From Azadirachta indica (Eukaryota > Streptophyta > Magnoliopsida > Sapindales > Meliaceae): a stretch of 64,000 nt of DNA. Of the stretch, positions 1 through 63,264 are shown one piece after another. Position numbers and translations under genes: made by a program. Location of the stretch: positions 6,750,966 to 6,814,965 of the forward strand of contig CM040446.1 in the NCBI GenBank assembly GCA_022749755.1, written 5' to 3'. Each line of letters opens with the position of its first letter. Within the stretch, counting starts at the first letter, position 1. The notes under the pieces are model-generated. The model made no database searches, had not been told where the DNA came from, and was given only the letters and a program-made list of their open reading frames with translations.

Positions 1-533
1 AAAATTTAACCTAGTGTATGGAGGAGGTAGCCTTGGGTTAATGGGGTGTGTGTCAACTGCCGCACATATAGGAGGAAGTGAAGTCATAGGTATCATACCA
101 AAGGCTTTATCTGCAGGTAACATAACTAGCAAAACAATTGGAGAAGAACTAATGGTCTCAACAATGCATGAAAGAATTGCTAAAATGCTTGATTTTGCAG
201 ATGCTTTTATTGCCTTACCAGGTGGTTTTGGGACCTTAGAAGAAATTTTTCAAATTGCATCTTGGGCACAACTCCACCGTTCGTCAAAAACCCATAGGAT
301 TGTTAAATGTTAATGGTTTCTTTAACAAGTTGTTGTCTTTTCTTGATCATGCTGTAGAACAAAATTTTATTTCACAGATGGCTCGCAAACTCCTCATTTC
401 TGCTCCGACTGCTAATGACTTGATCAATCAGTTGCAGAACTTTGTCTATGAGCTAGATCCAACAATGGCACGATTAGAATGGTTAAGTGAAAGCAGTAAA
501 AAGCGAAAGCTGGATTTGTCGCTTCATTTGTAA
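1..533 (+). pseudogene. LOG-type phosphoribohydrolase, copy A, partial and frameshifted
   Basis: Residues 41-216 of the LOG protein encoded intact at 26108-26758. The frame carries the [10 protein letters not shown] loop and the PGGFGTLEE signature. One extra C in the stretch near 271-277 (ctccac here, ctcac at copy B) shifts the frame: the first frame ends at 313 and the correct C-terminus continues in another frame from about 275 to 533. The rest is almost identical to copy B, so the insertion is either a recent inactivating mutation or a sequencing error. The 5' end lies outside the window. Confidence 0.9.
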
Positions 534-3930: not shown

Positions 3931-4034
3931 GGTACAAATAATAAATTGCAATCTCTATTCCTTTTTTCTGTTAATGAAAAAAAATTTATAAAAGTTAACT
4001 TTACTCTTTTAGTGCCACTATATTAATATGAGAG

Positions 4035-5875: not shown

Positions 5876-5962
5876 TTAGTACACCATAAAGTTTTATTGT
5901 TGTAATAGATTCTCCTTAAATGCGAAATTGACTTTTTTTTTTCCCCACAAATGATGCCAATT

Positions 5963-5994
5963 GTTGATATCAGATTTCGTCACCTGATATCAAC
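5963..5994. repeat. Perfect 11-bp inverted repeat (hairpin)
   Basis: GTTGATATCAG and CTGATATCAAC flank a 10-base loop. The structure recurs at 32180-32211 and 56398-56429; in unit S (44441-44472) one change next to the loop alters the outermost pair. It could be the terminus of an older transposon; no function is claimed. Confidence 0.7.
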
Positions 5995-7793: not shown

Positions 7794-7874
7794 ATGCCTA
7801 TCTGTATCTTGAATATAGTATTGTAACAAAAGTTGCATGCACCTTTAATTTTTTTATTTGATTTTCCCACGGTG

Positions 7875-7882
7875 TATATATA
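7875..7882 (-). promoter_or_regulatory. TATA box of the unit P peptide gene
   Basis: TATATATA lies about 82 bp upstream of the start codon and is conserved in every copy. A CATGCA (RY-type) word lies between it and the ATG. Confidence 0.5.
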
Positions 7883-16321: not shown

Positions 16322-16969
16322 ATGGAAGGAGCTTTTGTTCATCAATTTAAAACTATTTGTGTTTTGTATGAGTCAAGTCTTGGGAAAGGTGAAGAGTTTG
16401 TAAAAGTAGCAAACAACCTCGGTCGAGTTTTAATTGAGTGAAAACTTAACCCAATATATGTAGAAGGAAACCTTAGGTTAATGGGGTGTGTGTCAACTGT
16501 TGCACATGTAGGAGGAAGTAAAGTTGTAGGTGTTACACCAAAGGCTTTATCTGCAGGTAACATCATTGGCAAAACGATTGGAGAGGAATTAATGGTCTCA
16601 AAAATGCATGAAACAATTGCTAAAATGCTTAATTTTGCAGATGCTTTTATTGCCTTACCAGGTGGTTTTGGGACCTTAGAGGAAATTTTAAGTTACATAC
16701 TGGGCACAACTCACCATTCACCAAAAACCCATAAGATTGCTAAATATTAATGGTTTATTTAACAAGTTGTTATCTTTTCTTGATCATGCTATAGAACAAA
16801 ACTTTATTTCATAGACAACTCGTAAACTCCTCATTTCTGCTCCAACAACTAATGACTTGATCCATCAATTGCAGAATTTTGTCCATGAACTAGACCAAAC
16901 AATGGCACGATTATAATGGTCAAGTAAAAGCAGTAAAAACGTAAGTTGGATTTGTTGCTTCAATTGTAA
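16322..16969 (+). pseudogene. LOG pseudogene of the old retroelement, unit R
   Basis: Starts MEGAFVHQFKTICV and still reads the PGGFGTLEE signature, but is broken by a TGA at 16438-16440 (where the intact copy has R), a frameshift after the signature, a TAG in place of a glutamine codon (F-I-S-stop) and a TAA near the C-terminus. The last two stops are shared by the LOG copies in units S, T and U and so predate the amplification. Confidence 0.9.
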
Positions 16970-17844
16970 CTTTTCTTATTTTTTTACTCATTGCATTTTA
17001 TTATTTTTTTTAGTTATTTTTGCTTATGTTTGTTTCAGGTTTTACTTGTTTTTCAATAACTACCATTTCAGGTAATATTCTCTACATTGTACTCTCTGCA
17101 TTCAAACATTCAAGACAATGTTGCAATCTGGTTAGGGGGAATGTAATTGATATAAGTAGTCATTTTTATGTCACTAGAAAAAGAAAAAAAAAACCCTTTT
17201 AGATTCATAAATTGTAAAGATGGTAGAGTAGGGAGTAATCTTACTCTTGAGACACATCCTAGTAGATATGTATTATCATTTGTTTTGATTTTTGAATATC
17301 ATAATAAAGGATTTATCATTCACTTCCTTTTGAATTGATCAAATCTATAGACTCCCACATCATCATCATATAAAAAATTCTATTCAGATACTCAATCAAT
17401 AAGTATTCATAAACTATCTTTCATATACACACTTTGATACATGATTATGGATAACATATTAGAGTTTTACAATATTTGAGTTCCTTTGTTTTATTAAGGG
17501 TGCAACTAAGAGCTCTTTTGTTTTACGTAATAATCGAGCTTCTTACCTAATCAGCAGTGAATGTTTATGTAAAACGATAAAGTTTTGGTATGAATAAGTT
17601 CGTAACCTTAACTCGAGTAATTAGTCCGTATGGGTGTTTTAACACCTAATACCCGAAGGCCAACTAATCTAAGAGTTATTGGCCAAAAGCTCGCTACGTG
17701 GGTTAATATTAGGCCAAAATAATTTTTGCCCAAAAAAGTTTACCTTGACAAAATTTAGAACTAATATTGTTTTATCCCAATTAAATCTCAAAATGTGTAT
17801 TAGTTACAAAAAGCACAAAAAGATGGTTTGTTAATAACTTGACT
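16970..17844 (+). other. 3' UTR of the old retroelement, left of the nested insertion
   Basis: Non-coding. It matches the first part of the young element's own 3' UTR and the complete old 3' UTRs in units S and T. It is cut at 17844 by the young element and resumes at 29294. The bases tgact at 17840-17844 are the left target duplication. Confidence 0.8.
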
Positions 17845-19250
17845 TGATGAATATTTAAAAGTATAGGTTTATCAAAAGAAATATTATGATTTACACTTAA
17901 TAATGTCCTTCTATTCCCCAATAATGAAGCATATTCCTTTATATTGAATTGTAAAACATGAATTGGACTAAATAATTGGTTTTGCGCAGGTTTCGTATAA
18001 TGAGCGTATCTTTCAATCCAAATTATCAATTGATACGATTCTTGGGCTAGACAAACATAAACTCATCATTTCACAACTTTGTAAGCCAAAGGTTGGACCA
18101 GTTCGAGCAATTAATGGGACGAAATTGGGCTTCAACAGAACTCAAGCACATCTTTGAACCAGCCCAACATGCTTCCGTATTTGGGCCGTATCTCCCAAAA
18201 TATGTAACGAAAAATTATATGGTTGAGTGATCTAGAAAGCTGAGAAAGGGATCTAAATTGTTTATTTTTTTGTACTTTCTCAAATTTCAACTGGTCAGTT
18301 ACCAAAAAGAGCTATCATTCTAGAAGGGCGGTGGAGAAATGCGACTTGAACATATCTGCCTATTTTCAACACAACTCATGGTCTAAAATAGAAATAAGAG
18401 CGAGATATAGACCACTAGAAAGATGAGTCATCCACCTACAACTTTGAAGAAGGATGTTTTACGAAATTCGGTGGTTTTCATGGTCAAAAAAATGTTGGAA
18501 GTTGGTAAAGCGTGATTAATTAGAAATTGACCAAATTATGTTCACACATGTGGAATGTCTTTTGTTTTATCTATATGAAGGAAGACGTGGAAGTGAGGAG
18601 GGAGATCAGTTTTGTTTTCCATTTCTATTTTATTGTTGTAATTTGAACTTCAATTAAATGATGTATTTCTAATTTCGTAATTAGGGTTAAGGGTGAACTT
18701 TTGATGATTTTATAGTTTTGTTCTTTGATCTTTTGTTTTGCTCTTCATTGTTAATTTTTTATTGATTGAGTACTATATTTTGCAAGTGATTTTGAATTGT
18801 TAGAAACCTTGATTCATTGTTAACAAATGGTACATTGAATGCTTGGATATTTTCTACATATCAAGAGCAAGACAACTTATAGTGTTTCACCATCAACTAA
18901 AAGGTAAGTCTTTTGATTTCTTTGTGCTCAAATGTTTTGTTTTCATCATCCAATTAAGAATCACTTCTTTTGATTCTTAATTGTATTTTTCTTTAAAAAA
19001 AAAAAGGATCAAGAATAAATTCTATACAAATCATTAAAATGGATCCCTAATACCCTAATATATAAGAATATAGAATTTAAATTTGACAATAAGCAAATTC
19101 ACTCCATTGGAATATTCGGATTTGTAATATTTAGACCTTTGGACTTGTAGACTTAATATAACATATTCCCTGTGGACCGACACTCGGACTTCCGAACTTT
19201 ATTACTTGAGAAAACCTATACTTGGGAGTTACAACCTTTAAGTTGTAGCA
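17845..19250 (+). repeat. 5' LTR of young element B
   Basis: Begins TGATGAATA and ends GTAGCA. By eye it is about 98% identical to the 3' LTR, most differences being transitions, which indicates a fairly recent insertion. Confidence 0.92.
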
Positions 19251-19256: not shown

Positions 19257-19274
19257 TGGCGCCGTTGCCGGGGA
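19257..19274 (+). promoter_or_regulatory. Primer binding site, tRNA-Asp type
   Basis: TGGCGCCGTTGCCGGGGA lies 6 bases after the LTR and is complementary to the 3' end of plant tRNA-Asp, the primer used by Athila/Tat-type elements. Confidence 0.85.
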
Positions 19275-19366: not shown

Positions 19367-19762
19367 ATATATATTTTTTTTAATTTACTTGTTGTTGTTT
19401 ATTTTTATTGGGAGACTCAGCCGCCCATTTATTTTTACATTATGGTTGGTTCTACATATACCACCTAATTTTTGTTCATGGAAGGCTTTGCCACCTTTCT
19501 TAATTTTTTCTATTACATATTGTGTTGTTATTTTCATTTACAATAATTTTATTAAGAGGAAGGTTATACCACCTCTTTTCTTTTTTTTATTTGTTTTATT
19601 GTGCTAACATTTTACTGTATTGTTTTTATTATTATTATTATTATTATTTTTATGCTTGGATGGTATCGTGATTCTCATTCTCATCGATTGGTGAAAGGTA
19701 ATTCTAAAACCTCCTTTGGAAATTTGTTTGATTCATCTTCAAACTCACACACAACTAACACT

Positions 19763-22303
19763 ATGGCTGAAAATGAAAGTATACAAGGAGAAAATAAAAA
19801 TCATCATGTTCGAACTATGCGTGAATATTTGCAACCTCCTCGAAATTCATCTCTTTCATGCTTTATTTTTCCGCTTAATGCAAATAACTTCAGATTTAAG
19901 CCCGGTATGATTCTTTTACTTCCTAATTTCCATGGCTTAGAGTCTGAGAGTCCTTATTTACATTTGAAAGAATTTGAGGAAGTATGTGCCACATTTATGG
20001 ATCAAACATGTAGTGAAGAAATAATTAAGCTAAAATTGTTTCCTTTTTCTTTAAAAGATAAAGCAAAAACATGGCTTAATTCATTAAGACCTAGATCTAT
20101 AGGCACATGGCAAGAAATGCAAACCAAGTTTTTAAAGCAATTTTTTCCAATACATAAAACGAATGCTTTCAAGAGACAAATTCAAAATTTTTGTCAAAAA
20201 GGAAATGAAACCTATTTTCAATGTTTGGAAAGATTTAAAGACTTGTTGAATTCATGCCCACACCATGGTTTTGAAAAATGGCGTACGATAAGTTTCTTTT
20301 ATGAAGGGTTAACACCAGAGACAAAACAATTTGTTAAAATAATGTGTAATGGTGAATTTTTAGACAAAGACCCAGAAGAAGCTTTAGAGTATTTAGATCA
20401 TTTAGCTGAGAACTCTCAATCCTGGCAAACCACTAGTTCCTCTGAAAATTCAATTAGATCTAATATGACTAGTTCTAATGGGGGTAAATATAATTTGAGT
20501 CAAGAAAATGATCTAAGTGCTAGAATTACAAATTTAACGAGAAAAATTAAAGCCATGGAATTAAGGAAAGTTAAAGAGGTCAAATCTGTGCATAATGATA
20601 AAATTTGTGAAATTTGTGAAGTCATGGGACATTTCACTCAAGATTGTCCAAATATTCCTATTTTTAAAGAAGTGTTGCATGACCAAGCAAATTCTATGAA
20701 TTCCTTCAAAAAGCCTTTTTCCTCTAATTCTCCATATTCTGAAACATACAATCCTGGATGGAGAAATCACCCAAATTTTAGTTGGAGAAATGATAATCAT
20801 GCCCATCCACCACCTCAAAGACCTTCAAATTTTTCATCATACCATTCACCACATTTGAAAACTCTTGAGGAAACATTGCAAACATTCATGCAAGGGCGAA
20901 CAAGCATAAACAATCAAACATCACAAGCCATTGATGATATCAAGAATACACTTTCAACATTGACCTTACCTTTGCGCAGTCAAGAGAAAGGTAAATTTCC
21001 TGCTCAACCACAGTCAAATCCAGTGGGTCAATTTCATGTAAGTGATTCTAACTCAAATGGCATACAGCACGAGAATGCCAACTCTATCACTACTCTCCGA
21101 AGTGGTAAAGTCATTGATAAAACCATTTCTTTGAAAGAGATTAAACCTAAAGAACCATCAAAATTAGTGAGTGAGGAAAATAATGTTGAACCTAAGATGT
21201 GTGATGTTAAAAAATGCCCTATCCCTGCTCTTTTTCCTCAAAAATTGCAACCAATTCAAAAGTTAAACCAAAATTCTGAAATTTTTGAACTTTTTAAGCA
21301 AGTCAAAATTAACATTTCTTTGTTAGATGTAATTAAGCAAGTTCCTTCTTATGCCAAATTTTTGAAAGATTTATGCACTATTAAAAGGAAGCTTAATGTT
21401 CAAAAGAAAGCATTTTTAACTGAGAATGTTAGTTCGATTATTCAACATAACACTCCACCAAAATATAAAGATCCTAGTTGTCCCATCATTTCTTGTGTAA
21501 TTGGAAACTTTAGGATAAACCATGCTTTACTTGATCTTGGTGCAAGTGTTAATTTGTTGCCATATTCAGTGTATGAGCAATTAGGTTTAGGTGAGCTTAA
21601 ACCTACATCTACAACACTTCAACTTGCTGATCGTTTTGTGAAAATACCACGAAGAATACTTGAGGATGTGTTAGTCCAAGTAGATAAATTTTACTTTCCT
21701 GTAGATTTTATTGTCTTAGACACACAACCTGTTTCTAACTCAAGCACCCAAATTCCTGTCATATTAGGACGTCCATTTCTTGCTACATCTAATGAAATAA
21801 TCAATTGTAGAAATGGAGTTCTAAAATTATACTTTGGAAACATGACATTGGAAATGAATGTGTTTAATATTTGCAAGCAACCTAGTGAAAATGATGACAT
21901 GCATGAAGTTAGTTATATCGAGGAACTCGTTCATGACTACTTTAATGTTTCATCTTTTTCTGATCCCTTGGATTCTTGTTTAAATGGTTGCAATGATTTC
22001 AATTTTGATGAAAATTTTGAAGTATCTCATATTTATTCTCTTTTAAAATCTTCTCAGGTTTCGGAAGTTAATGGATGGAGACCAAATTTTGAAGACTTAC
22101 CTCAACGAGCTGATAAACCGATGCCATCGAGTGTTCAACCACTAAAACTTGAATTGAAACCATTACCATCTGACCTCAAGTATGCTTTCTTGGGTGCTAA
22201 TGAAACTTTTCCGGTGATAATTTCTTCTAAACTCAATGCTCTTCAAGAATGTAAGTTACTCGAAATTCTAAGATTGCATAAATATGCCTTAGGATGGCAA
22301 TAG
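19763..22303 (+). CDS. Gag-protease polyprotein of young element B
   Basis: An open frame runs from 19601; the likely starts are ATG at 19652 or ATG at 19763 (M-A-E-N-E-S). The capsid-type gag domain lies at about 19960-20420 (motif F-P-F-S-L-K-D-K-A-K-T-W-L). A CCHC zinc knuckle C-E-I-C-(4)-H-(4)-C is at 20606-20647. An aspartic protease has D-L-G-A-S at 21533-21547 and I-L-G-R-P-F near 21760. The frame ends with L-G-W-Q-stop at 22303 where the RT linker should continue. Comparison of the two frames suggests one G was lost in TGG-GCA, making this a frameshift rather than a natural stop. Coat and maturation functions for a virus-like particle are inferred from the family. Confidence 0.88.
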   Translation: MAENESIQGENKNHHVRTMREYLQPPRNSSLSCFIFPLNANNFRFKPGMILLLPNFHGLESESPYLHLKEFEEVCATFMDQTCSEEIIKLKLFPFSLKDKAKTWLNSLRPRSIGTWQEMQTKFLKQFFPIHKTNAFKRQIQNFCQKGNETYFQCLERFKDLLNSCPHHGFEKWRTISFFYEGLTPETKQFVKIMCNGEFLDKDPEEALEYLDHLAENSQSWQTTSSSENSIRSNMTSSNGGKYNLSQENDLSARITNLTRKIKAMELRKVKEVKSVHNDKICEICEVMGHFTQDCPNIPIFKEVLHDQANSMNSFKKPFSSNSPYSETYNPGWRNHPNFSWRNDNHAHPPPQRPSNFSSYHSPHLKTLEETLQTFMQGRTSINNQTSQAIDDIKNTLSTLTLPLRSQEKGKFPAQPQSNPVGQFHVSDSNSNGIQHENANSITTLRSGKVIDKTISLKEIKPKEPSKLVSEENNVEPKMCDVKKCPIPALFPQKLQPIQKLNQNSEIFELFKQVKINISLLDVIKQVPSYAKFLKDLCTIKRKLNVQKKAFLTENVSSIIQHNTPPKYKDPSCPIISCVIGNFRINHALLDLGASVNLLPYSVYEQLGLGELKPTSTTLQLADRFVKIPRRILEDVLVQVDKFYFPVDFIVLDTQPVSNSSTQIPVILGRPFLATSNEIINCRNGVLKLYFGNMTLEMNVFNICKQPSENDDMHEVSYIEELVHDYFNVSSFSDPLDSCLNGCNDFNFDENFEVSHIYSLLKSSQVSEVNGWRPNFEDLPQRADKPMPSSVQPLKLELKPLPSDLKYAFLGANETFPVIISSKLNALQECKLLEILRLHKYALGWQ

Positions 22304-23728
22304 CTGACATAAAAGGAATTAGTCCTTTGATTTGCACACATAAGATATATTTGGAAGATAATGCCAAATCATCTAGACAAATGCAACGTAGGCTGAATCC
22401 TAATATGAAAGAGGTAGTGAGAAATGAAATTCTCAAACTTTTAGATGTAGGGATCATTTACCCTATTTCTGATAGCACATGGGTAAGTCCTACACAAGTT
22501 GTACTTAAGAAATCTGGAGTTACTGTAGTCAAAAATGAAAATAATGAATTAATTTCAACTAGAACAATTACTAGCTGGAGAATGTGCATTGACTATAGGA
22601 AACTCAATTCAATGACTAGGAAAGATCATTTCGCGTTACCATTCATGGATCAAATGTTAGAAAGGGTAGCTGGAAATGCATTTTATTGTTTCCTAGATGG
22701 GTATTCTGGGTATAACCAAATTGAAATTGCACCTGAAGACCAAGAAAAGACCACTTTCACTTGTCCATTTGGAACTTTTGCATATAGAAGGATGCCATTT
22801 GGATTGTGTAATGCACCAGCTACATTTCAAAAATGCATGCTTAGTATTTTTAGTGATATGATTGAACGATTTCTTGAAATTTTCATGGATGATTTTTCTG
22901 TGTTTGGTGATTCATTTGATGATTGTTTATCTAACTTGGAAAAAGTTTTGATTAGGTGTGAAGAAAAGAATCTTATGCTTAATTGGGAAAAATGTCATTT
23001 CATGGTCACAAATGGTATTGTGCTTGGTCACATTGTCTCATCAAAAGGAATTGAAGTAGATAAATCTAAAATTGAATTAATTGCCAATTTACCTATTCCT
23101 AAGTCTGTTAAAGATGTTAGATCATTTTTAGGACATGTTGGTTTTTATAGAAGATTTATCAAAGACTTTAGTGTTATATCAAGACCATTGTGCAATCTCT
23201 TATTAAAAGATGCTCTCTTTGAGTGGACTGAGTCATGTCAAGAAGCTTTTGTCAAACTTAAAACCATACTAATCTGCTCCTATCATGCAGCCTCCAAATT
23301 GGACTTTACCTTTTGAAATCATGTGCGATGCTAGCGATTATGCTGTTGGAGCTGTTTTAGGACAACGAAAGGACAAGAAACCCTATATGATTTACTATGA
23401 TAGTAAAACCTTAAATAGTGCTCAAATGAACTATTCTACCACTGAAAAGGAATTACTTGCAGTAGTATTTGCATTGGATAAATTTTGATCTTATCTTGTT
23501 GGCTCACCCATTGTGATTTTTAGTGATCATGCAGCATTAAAATATCTTCTTTCAAAAAAGGATTCTAAACCTAGATTGATTAGGTGGATTCTACTACTTC
23601 AAGAATTTGATCTCACAATTCAAGACAAAAAGGGAGTACAAAATGTGGTTGCTGATCTCTTGTCAAGACTTATGTTTGAAGAATTGACTAAGACAACACC
23701 GATTAATGACAATTTCCCTGATGAGTAA
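22294..23728 (+). pseudogene. Reverse transcriptase-RNase H, frameshifted
   Basis: The RT frame runs 22294-23316 with the F-M-D-D catalytic box (variant of Y-x-D-D) at 22882-22893 and the usual upstream F-L-D-G-Y-S-G-Y region. Near 23275 the frame shifts. RNase H continues from 23285 (C-D-A-S-D-Y-A-V-G-A, then T-E-K-E-L-L) and stops at 23486-23488 where an arginine codon (CGA) appears to have become TGA. It resumes from 23489 (F-S-D-H-A-A-L-K) to 23728. In the family this enzyme copies the RNA into DNA. With these lesions the copy cannot make an active polyprotein. Confidence 0.88.
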
Positions 23729-25048
23729 CTTTTCAATGTTTCTATTTTACCTTGGTTTGCTGATATTGTCAATTTTCTTGTTATAGGTCAAATGCCAAAT
23801 CATTGGAATGCTCAAGATAAAAAGAAATTTTTAAGGGAGGTACGCAATTTCTTTTGGGATGATCCATATCTTTTCAAATATTGCCCTGACCAAATTATAA
23901 GGAGATGTGTACCTAACAATGAAATTCAAAATATCATTTCCTTTTGTCATTCTGAAGCATGTGGTGGTCATTTTTCTTCAAAGAAAACTGCTGCGAAAAT
24001 ATTGCAATGTGGATTTTATTGGCCCACCTTATTTAAAGACACAAATATATTTTGTAAAACATGTGACCGTTGTCAAAAATTAGGTGGAATAACTCGTAGA
24101 AACATGATGCCATTAAATCCTATTTTGGTCATTGAAATATTTGATTGTTAGGGTATTGATTTTATAGGTCCTTTTCCATTTTCTTTTGGGTATCAATACA
24201 TTTTAGTTGGAGTTGACTATGTTTCAAAATGGGTAGAGGTAATTTCTTGCAAAAATAATGATTATAAAATTGTTTTGAAATTTTTGAAAGAAAACATTTT
24301 TTCAAGATTTGGAGTGCCTCGAACAATAATAAGTGATGGAGGTTTACATTTTTGTAATAAGCCTTTTGAGAATTTAATGAAAAAATATAGAATTACACAT
24401 AAAGTGTCAACCCCTTATCACCCACAAACAAGTGGACAAGTTGAACTTGCCAATAGAGAAATAAAACATATTTTGAAAAAAACGGTAAAACCGAATCGTA
24501 AGGATTGGTCTTTAAGACTAACCGATGCACTTTGGGCTTATCGAATTGCTTTTAAATCATCACTTAGCATGTCTCCTTATAGACTTGTTTTTGGAAAGGC
24601 TTGTCACCTACCGGTGGAATTAGAACATAAAGCTTTTTGGGCCATTAAAATGCTTAATTTTGACTTAGATAAAGCAGGATCATTGAGAAAACTCCAAATA
24701 GATGAACTCGAAGAAATTAGAAATGAACCTTACGAGAATTCTAGAATTTACAAAAAGAAAATGAAGGTGTTTCATGATAAACATATCATTAGAAAATCAT
24801 TTGAAGCTTCACAAAAAGCTCTTTTGTATGATTCAAGATTGCATCTATTTCCTGGCAAACTTCGCTCAAAATGGACAGGTCCTTTCATTGTTAAGAAGGT
24901 TTACCCACATGGCGCTGTTGAGATTGAGAACCCCAAAAATGGCAATGTTTTTAAAGTTAATGGACACCGTTTAAAGCCATTCTTTGAGAATTTTCCAAGT
25001 GAGTTAGAGTCTATCACTTTGAATGAACCTGTTTACAATACTGGATGA
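23729..25048 (+). pseudogene. Integrase, interrupted by stop codons
   Basis: A TAA at 23726-23728 separates it from RNase H. The zinc-binding H-H-C-C region (C-G-G-H-F ... C-K-T-C-D-R-C) is at about 23940-24080. A TAG at 24149-24151 replaces the expected W before G-I-D-F-I-G. The D-D-E triad is otherwise present: D at 24158-24160, D in S-D-G-G near 24335, E in V-E-L-A-N-R-E near 24440. The C-terminus (R-L-K-P-F-F) ends at 25048 with no chromodomain. An open frame from 24275 to 25048 remains. Confidence 0.88.
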
Positions 25049-25252
25049 TTTTTTTTTTTTTTTGTATACACATTACTTGTTTTCTTGTGTTATTAATTTT
25101 TTTTTTCTTTCCATTGTTTGTTTTCAATTACTTTCCCGGTCAAGTGGCGGATAACGGTACTCCGTGACTCTTCAAGTCGGTTCTTTCAGTTGCCCAAAAT
25201 TACTGATACTCTTTTTTTTCTCTCACTTCCTTTTCTATTCTTTTCTTTCATT

Positions 25253-25387
25253 ATGGATGTCATTCTTTCTAGATTGCAAACATATTTTCCTTCTTTTCCT
25301 AAAGATGTTCTACGAAAAATGTACCAAGCTAGGTGTGCAAGATTAAGAATGCTTATGCTTAACGGCATTCTTGAAGATGTGCGTTGA
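25253..25387 (+). CDS. ORF-X, unrecognised 44-residue frame between integrase and LOG
   Basis: Starts MDVILSRLQTYF and contains K-M-Y-Q-A-R and L-N-G-I-L-E-D-V-R. It ends at TGA, but the next codons (I-I-E-A-K-I-R-L) stay open in the same frame, and in unit U (61765-61983) the frame runs on to 72 residues. It is present in the old relative in the same place. No domain recognised, no signal or membrane segment. It may be the remains of an env-position ORF. Confidence 0.4.
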   Translation: MDVILSRLQTYFPSFPKDVLRKMYQARCARLRMLMLNGILEDVR

Positions 25388-25568
25388 ATAATTGAAGCAA
25401 AGATACGTTTAGCAAGTGAGTTTTCTAATTCATTTGTTTCATACATGCCTAAACATGCCTGACTTAGGTAAGAGCTCTTTTGCAAAGAAATGAAGAGCGA
25501 AAATATTACAAGTATGTTATAAATGTGCACGATCAACTTGTAACAAGGGATGTCGTTCCCTAGGGATA

Positions 25569-25879
25569 ATGTCTACTAACAAAGAAGACAAAATTAAATT
25601 CATCAAGGATGGACTGAGTAAGGAGTCTTTAGATAATATCTTATTGACTCTTGAGACGCATCCTAGTGGATATGTGCAACGTGAAATTCTCAATTTGTAT
25701 ACATATTTCAAAAAGAACGTGATCGTTATAGTCTTGGGAATCTGACTTTAAAAGACCCTATTTGCCAATTTGTAAGAAAATTGGATGGGAAGCCAATCCT
25801 CGACCCATATAGGGCGTTTAAGCCGTTGCTGGACATAAAATCAGAGGAAGATGTGAGCCACAATCACAACTATCTATAA
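25569..25879 (+). pseudogene. ORF-Y, unrecognised frame, frameshifted in copy B
   Basis: Starts MSTNKEDKIKFIKDG. A one-base deletion near 25700 (tatacatatttc here, tacacgcaatttc elsewhere) ends the frame at 25745. The old-element copies in units S, T and U stay open for about 103 residues to the matching end. The consensus is charged with no membrane segment; no domain recognised. It lies about 180 bp after ORF-X and 230 bp before LOG. Confidence 0.5.
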
Positions 25880-26032
25880 ATATCTACTTTTAGCTGTCAT
25901 TGTTGAAATTTTTATGTTTTAGATTCCTATATTAGCTGTTATCTTTGACATTTTTACATTTTTAAATTTTAACTTTTATGACAACAGCTGGCTTACCTCT
26001 ATTGGTTTCATTAATGCATTCTCTTTAAGTTG

Positions 26033-26039
26033 TATAAAT
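26033..26039 (+). promoter_or_regulatory. Candidate TATA box for the retroelement LOG gene
   Basis: TATAAAT, in the context ttgtataaat, lies about 70 bp upstream of the LOG start. The same word (tataaata) is kept in the old copies in units R, S, T and U. It suggests LOG may have its own core promoter instead of relying on LTR transcription. Confidence 0.4.
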
Positions 26040-26107
26040 GCAGGACCTCACTTCTTTATTTTCATAAGAAATTTGAATCACTGACGAGGGTAAAAGACTG
26101 CAAAAAA

Positions 26108-26758
26108 ATGAAAGGAGCTTCTGCTCATCAAATTAAAACTATTTGTGTTTTTTGTGGGTCAAGTTCTGGGAAAGGTGAAGAGTTTGTAAAAGCAGTAGAT
26201 AACCTGGGTCGAGTTTTAGCTGAGCGAAAATTTAACCTAGTGTATGGAGGAGGTAGCCTTGGGTTAATGGGGTGTGTGTCAACTGCCGCACATATAGGAG
26301 GAAGTGAAGTCATAGGTATCATACCAAAGGCTTTATCTGCAGGTAACATAACTAGCAAAACAATTGGAGAAGAACTAATGGTCTCAACAATGCATGAAAG
26401 AATTGCTAAAATGCTTGATTTTGCAGATGCTTTTATTGCCTTACCAGGTGGTTTTGGGACCTTAGAAGAAATTTTTCAAATTGCATCTTGGGCACAACTC
26501 ACCGTTCGTCAAAAACCCATAGGATTGTTAAATGTTAATGGTTTCTTTAACAAGTTGTTGTCTTTTCTTGATCATGCTGTAGAACAAAATTTTATTTCAC
26601 AGATGGCTCGCAAACTCCTCATTTCTGCTCCGACTGCTAATGACTTGATCAATCAGTTGCAGAACTTTGTCTATGAGCTAGATCCCACAATGGCACGATT
26701 AGAATGGTTAAGTGAAAGCAGTAAAAAGCGAAAGCTGGATTTGTCGCTTCATTTGTAA
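26108..26758 (+). CDS. LOG-like: LOG-type cytokinin riboside 5'-monophosphate phosphoribohydrolase, intact, inside the retroelement
   Basis: Encodes 216 residues with no stop or frameshift, the normal size of plant LOG proteins. ATG 26108 is chosen because the alignable region (K-T-I-C-V-F-C-G-S-S-S-G) begins nine residues later; an upstream extension to 26030 has no ATG. Family motifs: nucleotide loop [10 protein letters not shown] at 46-55, I-I-P-K-A-L at 71-76, M-H-E-R-I-A-K-M at 95-102 with the conserved arginine R98, and P-G-G-F-G-T-L-E-E at 113-121 with the catalytic glutamate. LOG enzymes release active cytokinin bases from their nucleotides in the cytosol and nucleus. No introns are seen, whereas plant LOG genes usually have several, so it probably arose from a processed transcript. 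A basic tail (S-S-K-K-R-K) at 204-209 could act as a nuclear signal. Neighbours are ORF-Y upstream and the polypurine tract downstream. Confidence 0.93.
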   Translation: MKGASAHQIKTICVFCGSSSGKGEEFVKAVDNLGRVLAERKFNLVYGGGSLGLMGCVSTAAHIGGSEVIGIIPKALSAGNITSKTIGEELMVSTMHERIAKMLDFADAFIALPGGFGTLEEIFQIASWAQLTVRQKPIGLLNVNGFFNKLLSFLDHAVEQNFISQMARKLLISAPTANDLINQLQNFVYELDPTMARLEWLSESSKKRKLDLSLHL

Positions 26759-27890
26759 ACTTTTCTTATCTCTTTTTTTTCTACTAATTGCATTTTATTA
26801 TTTTTTTTTCTTTAGTTATTTTTGCTTAAGTTTGTTTCAGGTTTTACTTGTGTTTCAATAACTACTATTTCAGGTAATATTCTCTATATTGTACCTCTTT
26901 ACATTTAAACATTGGGGACAATGTTGCAATCTGGTTGGGGGGAGTGTAATTGACATAAGTAACCGTTTTTTTTTATACAACTAAAAAAGAAAAAAAATTA
27001 GATTCATAATTTGTAAGGATGTAGAGTAAGGAGTAATCTTACTCCTGAGACACATTTTAGTAGATACGCATTATCATTTGTTTTGATTTTTGAATTTCAT
27101 AACAAAGAATTTATCATTCACTTTCTTTTGGATTGATCAAATATACGAACTCTCACATCATCATCACATAATAAATTATGCTCAAATACTCAATCATTAA
27201 AATATTTATAAACCATCTTTCACACACACACTTTGATACATGACTGTGGATGACATATTGAAATTTTACAATATTTGAGCTTTTTAATTTTGTCAAAGGT
27301 AGCAACTAAGGGTTCAAAAAAAAAAATCTCCAAAAAAAAAAAATAATAAATAAATATTCTAATCAAAACTTTTACTTAGTAACCGGACTTCTTGCCTAAT
27401 CAGCAGTGAATATTCGCGTAAAACGATAAAGTTTTGATATGAATAATTTCATAACCTTAACTCAAGTAATTAAGCCTGTAGGGGTGTTTTAATACCTAAT
27501 ACCCTAAGGCCAACTGGTCTGAGAGTTATTGGCCCAAAGCTCGCTACATGGGTTAGGTTATGTTATTAAAAGAAAAAAGAAAAAAAAAGGAGATAGAAAT
27601 AATCTTTGCCCAAAGAAGTTTACCTTGACAAAATTTAGAACCAATGTTGTTTGATTCTAATTAAGTCCCATAACATGTATTAGTTATAAAAGCACAAAAA
27701 GAAGGTTTATGAATAATTCCACTGACGAGTATTTGGCACATATATAGTAAATTTTTAAGTGAGAGTTTGTTTATTTTGAGAAGATGAAAAGGAAAAGAAT
27801 GATTTTTACTTTGAATGTAAATTCTATAAATCAACTCTAAATGATATTGCTTATATTACTAGGGACTAGTAATAAGCTGGTTGGGGAGTG
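26759..27890 (+). other. 3' UTR of young element B with two polypurine tracts
   Basis: No gene. An internal purine tract ggttggggggagtg lies near 26934-26947 and the tract ctggttggggagtg at 27877-27890 abuts the 3' LTR. A-rich runs lie near 27315-27350 and 27565-27590. Confidence 0.75.
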
Positions 27891-29293
27891 TGATGAATGT
27901 TTAAAAGTGTAGGTTTATCAAAAAAAATATTATGATTTACACTTAATAATGTCCTTCTATTCCCCAATAATGAAGCATATTCCTTTATATTGAATTGTAA
28001 AACATGAATTGGACTAAATAATTGGTTTTGCGCAGGTTTCGTATAATGAGCGTATCTTTCAATCCAAATTATCAATTGATACGATTCTTAGGCTAGACAA
28101 ACATAAACTCATCATTTCACAACTTTGTAAGCCAAAGGTTGGACCAGTTCGAGCAATTAATGGGACGAAATTGGGTTTCAACAGAACTCAAGTACATCTT
28201 TGAACCAGCCCAACATGCTTCCGTATTTGGGCCGTATCTCCCTAAATATGTCACGAAAAATTATATGGTTGGGTGATCTAGAAATCTGAGAAAGGGATCT
28301 AAATTGTTTATTTTTTGTACTTTCTCAAATTTCAACTGGTCGGTTACCAAAAAGAGCTATCATTTTAGAAGGGCGGTGGAGAAATGCGACTTGAACATAT
28401 CTGCCTATTTTCAACACAACTCATGGTCTAAAATAGAAATAAGAGCGAGATATAGACCATTAGAAAAATGAGTCATCCACCTACAACTTTGAAGAAGGAT
28501 GCTTTATGAAATTCGGTGGTTTTCATGGTCAAAAAAATGTTGGAAGTTGGTAAAGCGTGATTAATTAGAAATTGACCAAATTATGTTCACACATGTGGAA
28601 TGTCTTTTGTTTTATCTATATAAAGGAAGACGTGGAAGTGGAGGGAGATCAGTTTTGTTTTCCATTTCTATTTTATTGTTGTAATTTGAACTTCAATTAA
28701 ATGATGTATTTCTAATTTCATAATTAGGGCTAAGGGTAAACTTTTGATGATTTTATAGTTTTGTTCTTTGATCTTTTGTTTTGCTCTTCATTGTTAATCT
28801 TTTTATTGATTGAGTACTATATTTTGCAAGTGATTTTGAATTGTTAGAAACCTTGATTCATTGTTAACAAATGGTACATTGAATGCTTGGATATTTTCTA
28901 CATATCAAGAGCAAGACAACTTATAGTGTTTCACCATCAACTAAAAGGTAAGTCTTTTGATTTCTTTGTGCTCAAATGTTTTGTTTTCATCATCCAATTA
29001 AGAATCACTTCTTTTGATTCTTAATTGTATTTTTCTTTAAAAAAAAAAGGATCAAGAATAAGTTCTATACAAATCATTAAAATAGATCCCTAATGCCCTA
29101 ATATATAAGAATATAGAATTTAAATTTGACAATAAGCAAATTCACTCCATTGGAATATTCAGATTTGTAATATTTAGACCTTTGAACTTGTAGACTTAAT
29201 ATAACATATTCCCTGTGGACCGACACTCGGACTTCCGAACTTTATTACTTGAGACAACCTATACTTGGGAGTTACAACCTTTAAGTTGTAGCA
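27891..29293 (+). repeat. 3' LTR of young element B
   Basis: Begins TGATGAATG and ends GTAGCA, followed by taact (right target duplication, one mismatch to tgact on the left). Confidence 0.92.
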
Positions 29294-29465
29294 TAACTAA
29301 TAAGTATTTGGTATATGTATAATAAATCTTTAAGTGAGAGTTTGTTTATTTTGAAAAAATCAAAAGAAGAGGAATGATTATTATTTTGGATGTAAATTTT
29401 ACAAATCAATTATAAATGATATTGCTTATATTACTAGGGACTAATAATAAGCTGATTGGGGAGTG

Positions 29466-30149
29466 TGATGAATGTTTAAAAATATAGACATATCAAAAGA
29501 AATATTATGATTTAGATTTAATAATGTTCTTCTGTTCCCCAAAAATAAATCATATTCTTTTATATTGAATTCTAAAACATGAATTGAACTAAATAGTTAG
29601 TTTTACGCAGGTTTCGTATAATGAACGTATCATTCAATCCAAAATATCAATTGATATGATTTCTGGGCTAGACAAACATAGACTCATTACTTCACAACTT
29701 TGTAGGTCAATGCTTGGATTAGTTCGAGTAATTAATGAGACAAAATTAGGCTTCAATAGAACTCAAATGCATCTTAAGATTAGCCCAACATGGTATTGTA
29801 TTTAGGCTGTATCTCCCAAATACATACCCAAAAATTATATAGATGGGTTCTCCAAAACCCTAACAAAGAGGTCTAAATGTTTTATGTTTTACACTTTCTC
29901 AAATTTCAACTGGTTGGCTACCAAAAAGAGCCATCATTCTAAAATAGCAGTAGAAAAATCTAACTTAAACATATCTATCTATTTTCTACACAACTTATGT
30001 TCTACAAAATCAACAAGAGTGAGATATGAACCACTAGAAAGCTGAGTCATCCACCTACAATTTTGAAGAAGGTGATTTCACAAATTTTGATGGTTTTGAT
30101 ATTCAAAAATATGTTGCAAGTTGGTAGAGTATAATTAATTAAAAATTTA
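29466..30149 (+). repeat. Truncated LTR of the old retroelement, unit R
   Basis: Continuation of the old element after the nested insertion; nearly identical to 3247-3930. Confidence 0.8.
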
Positions 30150-30253
30150 GGTACAAATAATAAATTGCAATCTCTATTCCTTTTTTCTGTTAATGAAAAA
30201 AAATTTATAAAAGTTAACTTTACTCTTTTAGTGCCACTATATTAATATGAGAG

Positions 30254-30876
30254 TAGGGATGACAATGGGCCGGGGTAGGGGTGGGGAGGCATGCCCCATT
30301 CCCCGCCTCGTTTTCTATTTTAACTTCCACTCCCCGCTTCATTCCCCACTAAATTTAATGGGATGGGATGGAGAATCCCCCGCACGGGGAATGAGTTCCC
30401 ATCCCCATATCAATTTCTTTTTTATAAATTAATTTTAATAATATAAGAATTTAATTAATTTAAATAAAAATATTATTGATATATTATTGGAAACACAATA
30501 TAAAATCTTTTTAATTTTTAATTTTTTACTTTTTATTTATATATTCTATTTTTTTATAACATTCATTCATGACTTTATAATTTTTTATTACTAATTATAT
30601 TTAATTATAATATATAATTTAAAAAATTATAATATTAAATTATATTTACATATATAAAATTTAATTTATAAATTATAATATATTTATAATATGTTTTATT
30701 GGGGAATAGGGTGGGGGTGGGGTGAGGAGAGGTAAAACAATTCCCGTCCCATTAATAAACTGAGGATTAATTTCTCCCGTTCCCCGTCCCATTTCCCGTA
30801 AATTTATCTGAATTCTCCGCCGTTGACGGTCGATCCCTATGGGTTTGGGGCCCCGTGGGGAATTTTGCCATCCTTA
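30254..30876. mobile_element. Non-autonomous hAT-like element, unit R
   Basis: Same element and same TATGAGAG duplications (30246-30253, 30877-30884) as in unit P. Confidence 0.75.
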
Positions 30877-33685
30877 TATGAGAGCGAACGTACACTTATA
30901 AACAAATAATGGAAACAAATATGAAAATAACTCAACTTATTTTAACATTATAACAAATTTAAAATCATAATATCTATAATTTAATGCATAAAGTATAGTA
31001 TTCTTGACAAATAATAAATTATAAATTTTTGAGACTGTATTTTTGATAGTTAAAAATTATTAGTCATATAAGATTATTTTAACAAGTCATTAGGTTCAGA
31101 TATTAAACTTTTACATGATTTAAGTATAAAATATAAATAGTTAAAGCTGAAAAGGACAAATAGTGAATAGATAAAGATATTTAATTATGAATAAAATATT
31201 GATAATAGATCTGAACCATAGAAATATTTAGATTTAGATCTGAAAAATATTTAATTCTAGACAAAATATTCATAATAGATTTGAACTTAAGAGATATTTA
31301 GATCTGGATTTGAAAGGTACTTAGATTTGAACCTAGAAGACATTTAATTTAGAGAAATATATTTTTTTTGTTCACGCCAAATGGTATTACATTTGTACGA
31401 GAAAGATATTTTGAGTAAATTTATTTTGCATTATATCCTAATGATATTTAATTTTCAACCCCAATGATATTTTGATTTGGATTCAATTAATATTTATCCA
31501 TGAAACCATATAATTCGTCATCTGTTTATTGGTTAAAACACTGTGTATTCATTTATCATTATTTTTTAGAAATTTATTTTTTATTTAAACTGAATAAATT
31601 TTTTTGAAATTTTATTTGTATTTACCTTTTCTTAATATTACATTAAAATTTAAATATATGCAATATATGTAATAGAAGTCTAAATATGACAATTTTTCTA
31701 TATTCCAAAACACCTAGTATAATTTTTCACAAATTGGGGATCAGCTCATGCTCTATTGTGATGGAAAATTCTACAATATTACAGGACATCTTATCATTAT
31801 GAGGGATTGAACACACTCTCTCAAATGGTTTATCAAAATCAAATATATTAACCATGTATACAATTAACATAAATAAAAAAAAATACTTAAATATTTTATC
31901 AATGTTAAATATATTACATTATGAATACAATTAATATAAATAAAAATAAATACTCAAATATTTTACCAAGATCAAATATTCACCATGTATACGATTAATA
32001 AAAATAAAAACAAAATATTCAGATATCTTATCAACATCAAATATATTAAACCATATATACAATCAATACAAATAAAATAAATACATACATTTTAGTACAC
32101 CATAAAGTTTTATTGTTGTAATAGATTCTCCTTAAATGGGAAATTGACTTTTTTTTTTTCCCCACAAATGATACCAATTGTTGATATCAGATTTCGTCAC
32201 CTGATATCAACCAATAAATTTATTTGTATATTGAGAAAAAAACCTATTTCTTCTGTTGTTTTTTTCCTTTATATACTCTCGTTGATTCGTTAAATTATTT
32301 AAAAAATTAGTTCAAGTGGGATTTTAAAGGGAGATAATTTAAGATTTAGTAGAATTCTAATTAGAAATAATTCAGTATTCTAGCTTACCTATAATTTAGA
32401 TAAAAAATGATTTATCTTAAAAGATTTTTTATTAGATTTGATCTAAATAAAAAATATTGATTAAAGTTTTATGAATTTGAACCTTTATCCTTTATCTTTT
32501 AGGCTTTTGTTCTTTAATATGGATTGAATAACTATCTTATTGGGTTAATATGCAGATGAAAAATTAACTTAATTTTAAATGTTGAAAAAATGGTCCAACA
32601 TCATATGCTCGTAATGAGTTTTTACAACAAAAATAATTTTTATTTAAATTTATTGTTAATTAAGCAATTTTATTCTCATTATTCTTTAGAATTTTTTGTT
32701 AAATTGAACATATTTAACATATATATATTTAGTTATTCATCTTATATATATATATGTATGGATGTATGCATTTCAAAATAATAGAAATATATGTGTGGTA
32801 CTATAATTGTTTAGGCCTAAAATCATAGACCGTGAGGTTAATTAAGGATTTAGGTCTTCATGTATGCTTTTTCTTTTAGAAAAATTATTTTTAAAATTTT
32901 TTTATTTACAAAAAATTGATTGCTTAAAAAAGGGAGAGAAAGGGAAAAGGATTCTATTTTTTTTTTATTTTCTAACTTTTAATTCTTTTAAATTTTTAAA
33001 AAGAAAAAATTGACTACTATAAAAATGGAAGAGAAAAGAAAAAGATTCAAATTTACTATTAGATATTTTAAATTATTTTTTCCTTAAAAGAAGAAATTGA
33101 TTATTATAAAGTGAGAGAGAAAAGAAAAATATTCAAATTTACTATTTTAGATTTTTTTAAATTATGTTTTCCTTAAAGAAGAAATTGATTATATAAAAAT
33201 GGGAGAGAAGGGAAAAAGATTTCAAATTTATCTTTTTAGATTTTTTTTTTTAATTTTTCTTAAAGGAAAAAGAAATTGATTACTATGAAAATGAATTAGA
33301 AGGCAAAAAAAAAAAAGAAATTGGAGGAAGGAGAGACTTTTTTTAACCATAAAAAAAAAGGAGAAAAATATTTTATCAACATGAATCTTTGTTTCACTCG
33401 AGTTATTTATTTTTAAGTTCCATTATTTAGATACTTTGTGCTTGATAGGTTGTATTTAAGTTACTTTCCTATGCACATAAAATTTATTTGTTAAGTATTA
33501 GTTTAACATTCGTGCATATAATCATTCATGTAACATAGAAATTTTGGCTTCAACAATAAATAAAAACACTAAATTAAAGATATTAAGCATTCAAATGAAT
33601 TTAACAAAACACAAAGAATCGTTTATTTGAAGGAGTAAACCATGATAAAGGCCATATACTTTTCCCTTAATTTTGCAAGCAGCAC
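30877..33685. other. AT-rich spacer, unit R
   Basis: Near-identical to 4661-7473 of unit P, including the minisatellite (about 31826-32090), the hairpin (32180-32211) and the 80-90 bp repeats (about 32930-33310). A 63-codon frame at 32590 exists only because of a small indel. No gene. Confidence 0.6.
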
Positions 33686-34005
33686 TCACTGGCCTTTGTC
33701 AACGAAAGAACCAGAAAGTTTTGGTGGATTACGTAAACATTTACAAGTATTATTCTGACATTTTATCGGTCCCGGACCCGGGCAAATAATTCGGCCAACA
33801 CAATCATCATCCTTCGAACATTTAGGTTGAGCTTCCACCAAAGTCTGCAACTCCCCTGAATTAATTCATAACACATCACATAAATATAAATATATAAAAA
33901 AATTTATAGACGAATATAAACTATGATTCATATAGAAAGAAACTGACAAGTTGCAATGATCATGAGAGCCACCACAAAAATCATCTTTGAAGAAATCTTC
34001 TCCAT
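33686..34005 (-). CDS. NCR-like secreted cysteine-rich peptide, unit R copy
   Basis: Exon 1 34005-33948, exon 2 33855-33686, same splice sites and 75-residue product as the unit P copy; both exons are identical in sequence to it. The TATA box (34087-34094) is also kept. Confidence 0.7.
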
Positions 34006-39731: not shown

Positions 39732-40043
39732 GTGTCTACTAACAAAAAAGATAAAATTCAATTCATTAAGGATGGTCTGAGTAACGAGTCTTTAGATAAT
39801 ATTCTACTAACTCTCGAGACACATTCTAGTGGATATGTGCAACGTGAAATTCTCAATTTATACACGCAATTTCAAAAAGAACATGATCGTTATAGTCTTG
39901 GGAATCTGACTTTAAAAGACCTTGTTTGCCAATTTATAAGAAAATTGGATGGAAAGCCAATCCTCGACCCTTGGAGGGCGTTTAAGTCGTTACTAGACGT
40001 AAAACCAGAGGAAGATGTAAGCCACAATCACAGCTATCTGTAA
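39732..40043 (+). pseudogene. ORF-Y of the old retroelement, unit S, full-length frame without ATG
   Basis: Open for 103 residues from a GTG that replaces the ATG of the young copy (S-T-N-K-K-D-K-I-Q-F). It shows the undamaged length of this unrecognised protein. Confidence 0.55.
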
Positions 40044-40267: not shown

Positions 40268-40916
40268 ATGGAAGGAGTTTCTGTTCGTCAATTTAAAACT
40301 ATTTGTGTTTTTTATGGGTCAGGCTCTGAGAAAGGTGAAGAGTTTGTAAAAGCAGCAAACAATCTCAATCGAGTTTTAACTAAGTGAAAACTTAACCTAA
40401 TATATGGAAGAGAAAGCCTTAGGTTAATGGGGTGTGTGTCAACTGTTGCACATGTAGGAGGAAGTAAGGTTGTAGGTGTTATACCAAAGGTTTTATCTAC
40501 ATTTAACATCATTGGCAAAATGATTGGAGAAGAATTAATGGTCTCAAAAATGCATGAAACAATTGCTAAAATGCTTAATTTTGCAATGCTTTTACTGCCT
40601 TACCAAGTGGTTTTGGGACCTTAGAGGAAATTTTTCAAGTTACATACTGGGCACAGCTCACCATTCATCAAAAACCCATAGGATTGCTAAATATTAATGG
40701 TCTATTTAACAAGTTATTATCTTTTCTTGATCATGCTGTAGAACAAAGCTTTATTTCATAGATGACTCACAAACTCCTCATTTTTGCTCCAATTGCTAAT
40801 GACTTGATCCATCAATTGCAGAATTTTGTCCATGAACCAGACCCAACAATGGCACGATTATAATGGTCAAGTAAAAGTAGTAAAAGCGCAAGCTGGATTT
40901 GTTGCTTCAATTGTAA
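40268..40916 (+). pseudogene. LOG pseudogene of the old retroelement, unit S
   Basis: Carries the same early TGA as unit R, a one-base deletion just before the P-G-G-F-G-T signature that destroys it in frame, and the two shared late stops. Confidence 0.9.
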
Positions 40917-52248: not shown

Positions 52249-52898
52249 ATGAAAGGAGCTTATGTTCGTCAATTTAAAACTATTTGTGTTTTTTATGGGT
52301 CAATCTTTAAGAAAGGTGAAGAGTTTGTAAAAGCAGCAAACAACCTCGGTCGAGTTTTAACTGAGTGAAAACTTAGCCTAATATATAGAGGAGGAAGCCT
52401 TTGGTTAATGAGGTGTGTGTCAACTGTTGCACATGTATGAGGAAGTAAGGTTGTAGGTGTTATACCAAAGGTTTTATCTGCAGGTAACATCATTGGCAAA
52501 ATGATTGGAGAAGAATTAATGGTCCCAAAAATGCATGAAATTATTGCTAAAATGCTTAATTTTGTAGATGCTTTTATTGCCTTACCAGGTGGTTTTGGGA
52601 CCTTAGAGGAAATTTTTCAAGTTACATCTTGGGCACAACTTACCATTCACCAAAAACCCATAGGATTGCTAAATATTAATAGTTTATTTAACAATTTGTT
52701 TTCTTTTCTTGATCATGCTATAGAACAAAACTTTATTTCATAGACGACTCGCAAACTCCTCATTTCTACTCCAACTGCTAATGACTTAATCCATCAATTG
52801 CAGAATTTCGTCCATGAACCAGACCCAGCAATGGCACGATTGTAATGGTCAAGTAAAAGCAGTAAAAGCGCAAGTTGGATTTGTTGCTTCAATTGTAA
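52249..52898 (+). pseudogene. LOG pseudogene of the old retroelement, unit T
   Basis: Starts MKGAYVRQFKTIC. It has the early TGA shared with R and S, a further TGA after A-H-V, an intact P-G-G-F-G-T-L-E-E stretch in an open frame at 52501-52743, and the two shared late stops. Confidence 0.9.
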
Positions 52899-62616: not shown

Positions 62617-63264
62617 ATGGCAGGGAGCTTCTGTTCGTCAATTTAAAACTATTTGTGTTTTTTATGAGTCAAGCCCTGGGAAAGGTGAAGAGTTTGTAAA
62701 AGCAGCAAACAACGTCGGTCGAGTTTTAACTGAGTCAAAATTTAACCCAATATATGTACGAGGAAACCTTAGGTTAATGGAGTGTGTGTCAACTGTTGCA
62801 CATGTAAGAGGAAGTAAAGTTATAGATGTTATACCAAAGGCTTTATCTGCAGATAACATCATTGGCAAAACGATTGGAGAAGAATTAATGGTCTCAAAAA
62901 TGCATGAAACAATTACTAAAATGTTTAATTTTGCAGATGCTTTTATTGCCTTACCAGGTGGTTTTGGGACCTTAGAGGAAATTTTTCAAGTTACATATTG
63001 GGCACAACTCACCATTCACCAAAAACCTATAGGATTGTTAAATATTAATGGTTTATTTAACAAGTTATCTTTTCTTGATCATGCTGTAGAACAAAACTTT
63101 ATTTTATAGACGACTTACAAACTCCTCATTTTTTCTCCAATTGCTAATGACTTGATCCATCAATCGCAGAATTTTGTCCATGAACCAGACCCAACAATGG
63201 CACGATTATAATGGTCAAGTAAAAGCAGTAAAAGCGCAAGTTGGATTTGTTGCTTCAATTGTAA
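62617..63264 (+). pseudogene. LOG pseudogene of the old retroelement, unit U
   Basis: Frameshifted just after the ATG (one extra base). It lacks the early TGA of R, S and T (TCA there instead). It is open from about 62777 to 63109 including P-G-G-F-G-T-L-E-E with a small in-frame deletion, then has the shared TAG and TAA. Confidence 0.9.

Follow-up and report, generated by a model that had tools for sequence, protein, structure and literature searches.

A multi-copy Athila-like Ty3/gypsy retrotransposon carries a LOG-family frame with altered pocket residues

Introduction

The extra enzyme genes of plant LTR elements have often been reported merely as domain matches. The locus described here, in a window of 64 kb (the whole stretch of Azadirachta indica DNA that was analysed), holds an LTR retrotransposon with a LOG-family frame inside it, and raises the question of whether such a gene has been kept by selection or is carried as a passenger, and of what its product would do. 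The first part of this question is testable, because a single genome shows the number of copies, the ages of the LTRs, the LOG genes of the host and the residues of the active site. An earlier note on this DNA had described an intact cytokinin-activating LOG enzyme encoded by the element; the anatomy that it proposed stands, and the function that it proposed is now in doubt.

Structure and insertion of the element

Judged by its sequence characters, the element in the window, 11.4 kb in length, is an Athila-like Ty3/gypsy retrotransposon with a LOG frame between integrase and the 3' LTR. Its features are as follows (window coordinates, strand, evidence).

17840..17844, no strand: left target-site duplication TGACT (flank comparison; empty site in sibling repeats)
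17845..19250, +: 5' LTR (TGATGAAT...GTAGCA; 97.8% against 27891-29293)
19257..19274, +: primer binding site complementary to the 3' end of tRNA-Asp (tRNA match)
19601..22303, +: gag and aspartic protease frame, 900 aa (PF03732, 1.4e-21; PF13650, 22.7 bits, below the cut-off of 24.3)
22294..23316, +: reverse transcriptase frame (PF00078, 2.5e-29; not in the frame of gag, broken downstream)
23792..24151, +: integrase, zinc-binding part (PF17921, 4e-13)
24275..25048, +: integrase, core and C-terminal part (PF00665, 4.5e-7; 30.5 bits, just below the cut-off of 32.6)
26033..26043, +: splice-acceptor-like TATAAATGCAG, a candidate only, ending 64 nt upstream of the LOG start
26108..26758, +: LOG-family frame (open reading frame, PF03641, TIGR00730, PDB sequence match, modelled fold)
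27879..27890, +: polypurine-tract-like GGTTGGGGAGTG adjoining the 3' LTR (sequence)
27891..29293, +: 3' LTR (alignment of the LTR pair)
29294..29298, no strand: right target-site duplication TAACT (flank comparison; empty site)

The LTR pair is 97.8% identical (26 mismatches in 1407 columns), and the two copies of the target duplication agree at four of five positions. The flanks, when joined with one copy of the duplication included, align unbroken with sibling repeats at 41.6-41.95 kb and 53.5-54.0 kb, which thus represent the empty site. The earlier note's placement of the LOG frame between integrase and the polypurine tract of a Ty3/gypsy element, inside both LTRs and the target duplication, is borne out by the LTR pair and the empty site. 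At substitution rates of 7e-9 to 1.3e-8 per site and year, which come from other plants, the LTR mismatches would make the insertion about 0.7 to 1.3 million years old. The gag-protease, reverse transcriptase and integrase parts of this copy lie in separate, interrupted frames, so that pol is broken, and the LOG frame is open.

The assignment to Ty3/gypsy follows the paired LTRs, the target-site duplication, the primer binding site and the position of reverse transcriptase ahead of integrase. The primer binding site starts at 19257, 6 nt beyond the LTR, and complements the final 18 nt of a tRNA-Asp to which CCA has been added; a matching tRNA 3' end occurs at 16 sites in the genome (control 0), and the one site retrieved was called tRNA-Asp(GTC). 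Within Ty3/gypsy the reverse transcriptase motif presumably resembles that of Athila. A tRNA-Asp primer site just beyond the LTR, as in Calypso and Diaspora, likewise points to the Athila lineage, as a marker that is not unique to it: non-chromoviruses generally use several tRNAs, Asp among them (PMC6317226).

The LOG frame and its protein

The frame at 26108-26758 on the + strand runs from ATG to TAA without internal stop or intron and encodes 216 aa. The window protein scores above the cut-offs of PF03641 (Pfam, 1.2e-40) and TIGR00730 (1e-53). Its best relatives of solved structure are the Arabidopsis proteins At2g37210 (PDB 2a33, 4.5e-64) and At5g11950, and its identity is 51% to AtLOG3 and 49% to AtLOG8; against the bacterial NCBIfam equivalog model CtkRMPhLog it reaches 122.6 bits, the cut-off being 300. 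A structure predicted from an alignment of 46 sequences (mean pLDDT 84) was used in place of a poor single-sequence model (pLDDT 40), and in a comparison with the PDB it matched AtLOG3 2a33 and 1ydh best (TM by target length 0.93-0.95), with the P. aeruginosa LOG among the best matches beside these two Arabidopsis LOGs. By sequence and predicted fold, the window protein is a member of the LOG family.

Copies in the window and in the genome

The window contains six LOG copies, of which one is partial; the five besides the frame described above are listed here.

1..533, +: 3' portion of a LOG with 99.6% identity, from a tandem duplicate of the same element (window self-comparison)
16322..16969, +: older decayed copy (DNA identity 86.9%; 3 stops, frameshifts)
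40268..40916, +: older decayed copy (3 stops, frameshifts)
52249..52898, +: older decayed copy (4 stops, frameshift)
62624..63264, +: older decayed copy (2 stops, frameshifts)

A protein search of the same genome (280.8 Mb, 21 contigs) gave at least 152 LOG matches, scoring having covered 150 of the 389 candidates. Thirty-eight loci were examined, and 34 of these, representing 26 distinct places, match the element; in all 26 places element sequence stands upstream of the LOG and an LTR downstream. Sequence of the 3' LTR follows the LOG in 34/34 loci and pol or integrase sequence precedes it in 33/34, the remaining locus (L038) having element spacer only. The four loci without an element match (L009, L010, L011 and L013) are unrelated intronless LOGs. 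The LOG frame is part of a multi-copy family of elements, and its place in the element is fixed. The frame is thus not confined to the single element from which the earlier note described it.

In a search with the LTR, 40 of 869 candidates were scored, and the 41 LTR matches listed were compared with 150 LOG rows. Among these 41 LTR matches, 14 are situated immediately 3' of a LOG on the list (at 1.13-1.26 kb in 10 cases), 13 stand 5' of one (7 at 6.8-6.9 kb) and 14 have no listed LOG nearby; these last are perhaps solo LTRs.

Several further observations concern the arrangement of these repeats. Blocks 1-8586 and 26227-34799 of the window are 99.5% identical and separated by about 26.2 kb. 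They represent a recent tandem duplication, in which part of the LOG element is included, and much of the remaining window consists of older, more diverged repeats of the same tandem units. Large imperfect palindromes, about 72-74% self-complementary, recur in these units (9834-10508, 34428-34989, 46637-47329 and 57502-58172). Elsewhere in the genome, loci L002 and L004, on different contigs, have a pol deletion in common (23843 to 25128 in window coordinates) and an open LOG, and this deletion form may be a non-autonomous element that spread. A recurring peptide (DGLSNESLDNILLTLET...) lies between integrase and LOG (25259-26000; open reading frames 39732-40043, 51695-52024 and 62081-62392), has a reading frame that is open in copies of greater age and interrupted in the younger element, and showed no convincing relative in Pfam or the PDB.

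Related elements

LOG has been found in Gypsy elements before. The YgdH (LOG) domain occurs in Gypsy consensus sequences of Citrus sinensis and C. clementina and, under a laxer filter, in Gypsy elements of Populus trichocarpa (PMC9289625), in agreement with Steinbauerova et al. 2011, cited there. LOG in a retroelement is therefore not new, although the earlier note knew of no standard retroelement gene set with LOG in it. These citrus and poplar elements likewise have a LOG-family extra domain in Ty3/gypsy; for them, in the parts of that report available, presence alone is given (PMC9289625), whereas residues, lineage and selection are analysed for the present element only. A literature search, mostly of records without full texts, found no other report of LOG-bearing retroelements, and the terms 'lonely', 'cytokinin' and 'lysine decarboxylase' are absent from PMC7264820 and PMC11963269.

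The closest structural parallels are with the Athila lineage, of which Diaspora and Calypso have a tRNA-Asp primer site 5 bp past the LTR; a tRNA-Asp site a few bp beyond the LTR is common to Athila, Calypso, Diaspora and the window element, and Diaspora, at 11.7 kb, compares with 11.4 kb here (PMC1142308). Athila relatives and the window element also have in common a slot between pol and the 3' LTR, and differ in its content, which is an env-like frame in most relatives, nothing in Diaspora and LOG in the window element; in Tpb1-1 the slot holds a degenerate interval named an 'apparent retrogene' (PMC1142308). A host-type enzyme is likewise found as an extra frame in Gypsy elements of Phalaenopsis, in the form of an AlkB-type RNA demethylase that is active in vitro (PMC9289625), whereas the window LOG is a different enzyme, known from its sequence.

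Proposed capture and constraint, and present decay

The reading that we favour, which we hold to be about evenly balanced between right and wrong, is that an Athila-like element captured a plant LOG in spliced form long ago, with the gene constrained for much of its history and now mostly decaying. Such an element would have acquired the gene as a spliced plant mRNA, have placed it between integrase and the 3' LTR, in the slot of the env-like frame of its relatives, and have copied it along with itself ever since; selection would have preserved the LOG for much of a long branch while it was inside the element. The main alternative is that a host LOG retrocopy was caught in the element and has hitchhiked without benefit, drifting since its capture.

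The present state of the copies is one of decay. From 111 copies collected, 86 were kept after removal of those within 0.6% of another, same-place repeats included; the LOG frame is open in 17 of these and lost in 69, and is open in 11 of the 32 copies within 5% of the window copy, in a sample enriched for open frames, many copies having been chosen since the genome search listed no stops in them. Most sampled copies look like insertions that have lost the frame and are decaying neutrally. A dN/dS near 1, which the earlier note had named as a sign against its reading, is partly seen. Against the window copy, LOG gives 0.68 (L074), 0.76 (L069), 1.02 (L070) and 0.64 (L036), and integrase 0.85, 0.68, 0.38 and 0.40 in the same order, with 1-3 stops in each of these four integrase pieces; against five other young copies the values are 0.68-2.25 for LOG and 0.33-1.49 for integrase. 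Fitted on a tree (NG86) to 50 copies of a 54-copy set, with L048, L049, L050 and L037 left out, dN/dS of LOG comes to 0.86 for end branches and to 0.64 (0.45-0.86) for inner ones; controls set one or two bases off frame give 0.41 and 0.49 (end) and 0.37 and 0.67 (inner), matching the inner value, so that the estimates carry mutation bias and are rough figures only. In many LOG copies genome-wide, C-to-T and G-to-A changes have recurred at identical sites, as methylated DNA would show (recurrent-change and indel counts used 83 copies, three of the four older window copies being also excluded); such changes defeat a simple dN/dS and are the likely cause of the off-frame values.

Other measures of recent change agree with drift in the copies sampled, where the substitution pattern is near neutral. 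A count of the McDonald-Kreitman (MK) kind over the 86 copies gave no purifying signal, with nonsynonymous to synonymous variants at 168:61 plus 18 stops among singletons and at 42:11 plus 1 stop among shared variants of single origin (p 0.60), a shared class that may partly derive from segmental duplicates of dead copies; homoplastic variants in LOG stood at 224:87 plus 18 stops. Indel sharing was dropped as proof of selection, since shared to single indels in LOG (0:4, both ends, 26108 and 26757, with the A-run and stop region, excluded) do not depart from those in the flanks (55:143; p 0.58). Measured from the window copy, LOG has a mean divergence of 0.052, similar to the 0.047 of integrase and the 0.053 and 0.061 of two non-coding stretches; a third spacer, at 0.084, is anomalous in the window copy. 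Its spacer at 25049-25560 differs by 6-9% from young copies, the adjacent parts by about 2-6%, as if this stretch had come from another lineage via recombination. Judged on these sequence comparisons, recent constraint on LOG is weak or undetectable.

Drift along the whole branch is harder to accept. The window copy retains 44 of the 52 residues that are invariant across AtLOG3, AtLOG8, the P. aeruginosa LOG and YvdD. Six of its eight losses recur in every one of the 22 listed copies without a stop; the remaining two (residues 30 and 134) are rare across the family. The match to AtLOG3 is concentrated at the invariant sites (44/52 against 55/142 at other sites, p 7e-9). An open frame and the family-wide loss of only 6/52 invariant residues, over a branch of 0.74 changes per residue, are hard to reconcile with drift throughout, and the survival of these residues along that branch argues for older constraint. 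Transversions taken alone also speak against a mere passenger, the rate in LOG being 0.42 of the non-coding value with three stretches pooled. On balance a passenger throughout seems unlikely. L074 deserves mention: its LTR pieces differ at 18 of 629 columns, and its LOG is nevertheless 8.6% from the window LOG, so that part of its divergence predates insertion; the LOG of L074 is open and has lost Pro113 and Glu120.

Active site and substrate

The alteration of the pocket is the most interesting new fact about this family. The window copy retains PGGxGTxxE and the catalytic pair, Arg98 and Glu121, and the description in the earlier note of a full-length, intronless frame with this signature and the conserved arginine is confirmed. 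Across the family Arg98 is retained in 75/86 copies and Glu121 in 84/86. Lys99 has become Ile, and Glu124 has become Gln, each in 82/86 copies and in 17/17 open copies, and Glu80 has become Asn in 85/86. A lysine follows the conserved arginine in all other LOGs compared, where the element LOG has isoleucine, and all 69 bacterial LOGs have Glu at 124 and Lys at 99 (one with this Lys within MPERK). The element LOG thus has the fold, catalytic pair and phosphate loop in common with AtLOG3 and AtLOG8, and is unlike them in Lys99Ile, Glu124Gln and Glu80Asn, and in being intronless and element-borne.

In CgLOG, Arg99 and Glu122 are catalytic, and Lys100 and Glu125, which correspond to positions 99 and 124 here, belong to the adenine and prenyl sites; alanine changes of AMP-binding and catalytic residues, Ser19 excepted, led to near-complete loss of activity, in an account that does not itemise the mutants in the parts available (PMC4979012). 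The element LOGs lack the conserved Lys and Glu of this adenine/prenyl pocket. As the M. marinum LOG likewise deviates at the prenyl site (PMC4979012), the changes need not abolish activity. Ratios of LOG products are reported to differ widely within plants (PMC11593424). From the residues retained and replaced, the hydrolase chemistry of the element LOG may survive, and its base specificity is in doubt.

Old capture followed by constraint would have the following consequences for the enzyme. The gene product, present or past, would be a LOG-fold nucleotide 5'-monophosphate phosphoribohydrolase, presumably active, in which the phosphate loop and the catalytic Arg and Glu were retained and the base/prenyl pocket was altered before the present copies diverged; its substrate preference probably moved from, or widened beyond, the canonical cytokinin nucleotides. 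It would be translated perhaps from a spliced 3' transcript. The AG of the splice-acceptor-like TATAAATGCAG is retained in 27 of 31 copies compared, with CAA in the other 4. One extension, which we regard as improbable, is that the captured LOG with its remodelled base pocket became the element's own nucleotide hydrolase for a non-cytokinin substrate, long kept by selection; if true, such an enzyme might, for example, alter the pool of nucleotides or modified nucleotides to the element's benefit.

It is distinctly unlikely, by comparison, that the frame encodes an active cytokinin-releasing enzyme which favours the proliferation of element-carrying cells. The predicted LOG fold is consistent with it, as is the retention of Arg98 and the whole of PGGxGTxxE in 11/17 open copies (the window copy and 10 of the 16 others), the other six having lost Arg98 or part of the motif; against it stand the two positions whose CgLOG equivalents build the adenine/prenyl site (PMC4979012) and which, uniform in the bacterial LOGs, are replaced in every open copy. 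With two conserved pocket residues replaced, cytokinin release by the element LOG is putative. The replaced pocket residues lead to a sharply defined prediction for biochemistry, and time depth would come from relatives in other plants.

Origin of the frame

In host LOG genes of the same genome, introns fall near residues 32, 64, 75, 108, 132 and 179 (Arabidopsis numbering), and the element frame carries none of these six, so that spliced RNA is its likely source. In a midpoint-rooted tree of 35 rows, the element LOGs form one clade (100/99) on the branch of 0.74, the plant LOGs form one clade, and element and plant LOGs together are split from 23 bacterial LOGs with support of 100/98. The bacterial loci were the best 80 of those listed, less 11 with a stop in the translated stretch or more than 260 residues, giving 69, of which every third (23) entered the tree and 45 the alignment A2. 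A bacterial origin is disfavoured by this inner branch joining the element with plant LOGs, and a single-sequence scan of viral_contigs, a method limited to close relatives, confirmed no viral relative. The plant-side ancestry of the element LOG, read from these sequences, is supported but less firm.

Host exons were sought by an exon-junction scan, which took the conserved exon end FIALPG followed by bases unlike the intronless form and returned 22 sites against 3 in the control, and 11 against 7; six of the 22 are element copies of the genome LOG search. Of ten stretches retrieved, a LOG exon is present in six and absent from four. Together with the host genes whose introns were mapped, these stretches supplied nine different host exons, which agree with the element at 18-21 of 34 residues and with one another at 23-32 of 34, and Lys99 is kept in 9/9; the host-like sites C11:12150066, C10:3447633 and C19:4601144 lie outside this comparison. 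No near host parent of the element LOG was found among the nine exons, within the reach of the scan.

These exons bear on the last alternative, a recent capture from a divergent host LOG paralog in which the pocket changes had already arisen. AU tests do not reject element LOGs placed inside the plant LOGs (p 0.14-0.24), and a distant host gene could hide where genome match lists are filled by element copies; however, none of the nine exons shares more than 21/34 residues with the element or has lost Lys99, and we consider such a capture quite improbable. A divergent host paralog, lost or missed by the scan, could nevertheless explain part of the long branch that the favoured reading, an old capture, ascribes to time inside the element.

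Further intronless LOGs, nearer to host LOGs, occur outside these elements (L009, L010, L011, L013, L039-L043 and L045), and some of them form nearly identical pairs whose members are widely separated on a single contig. Six intronless LOGs, at C7:771342, C7:5951041, C7:6003749, C5:1908254, C5:9103259 and C5:19067772, were considered as sister elements and rejected, because LOG is the sole element protein that matches their flanks (about 1.5 kb); they look like processed copies of host LOGs.
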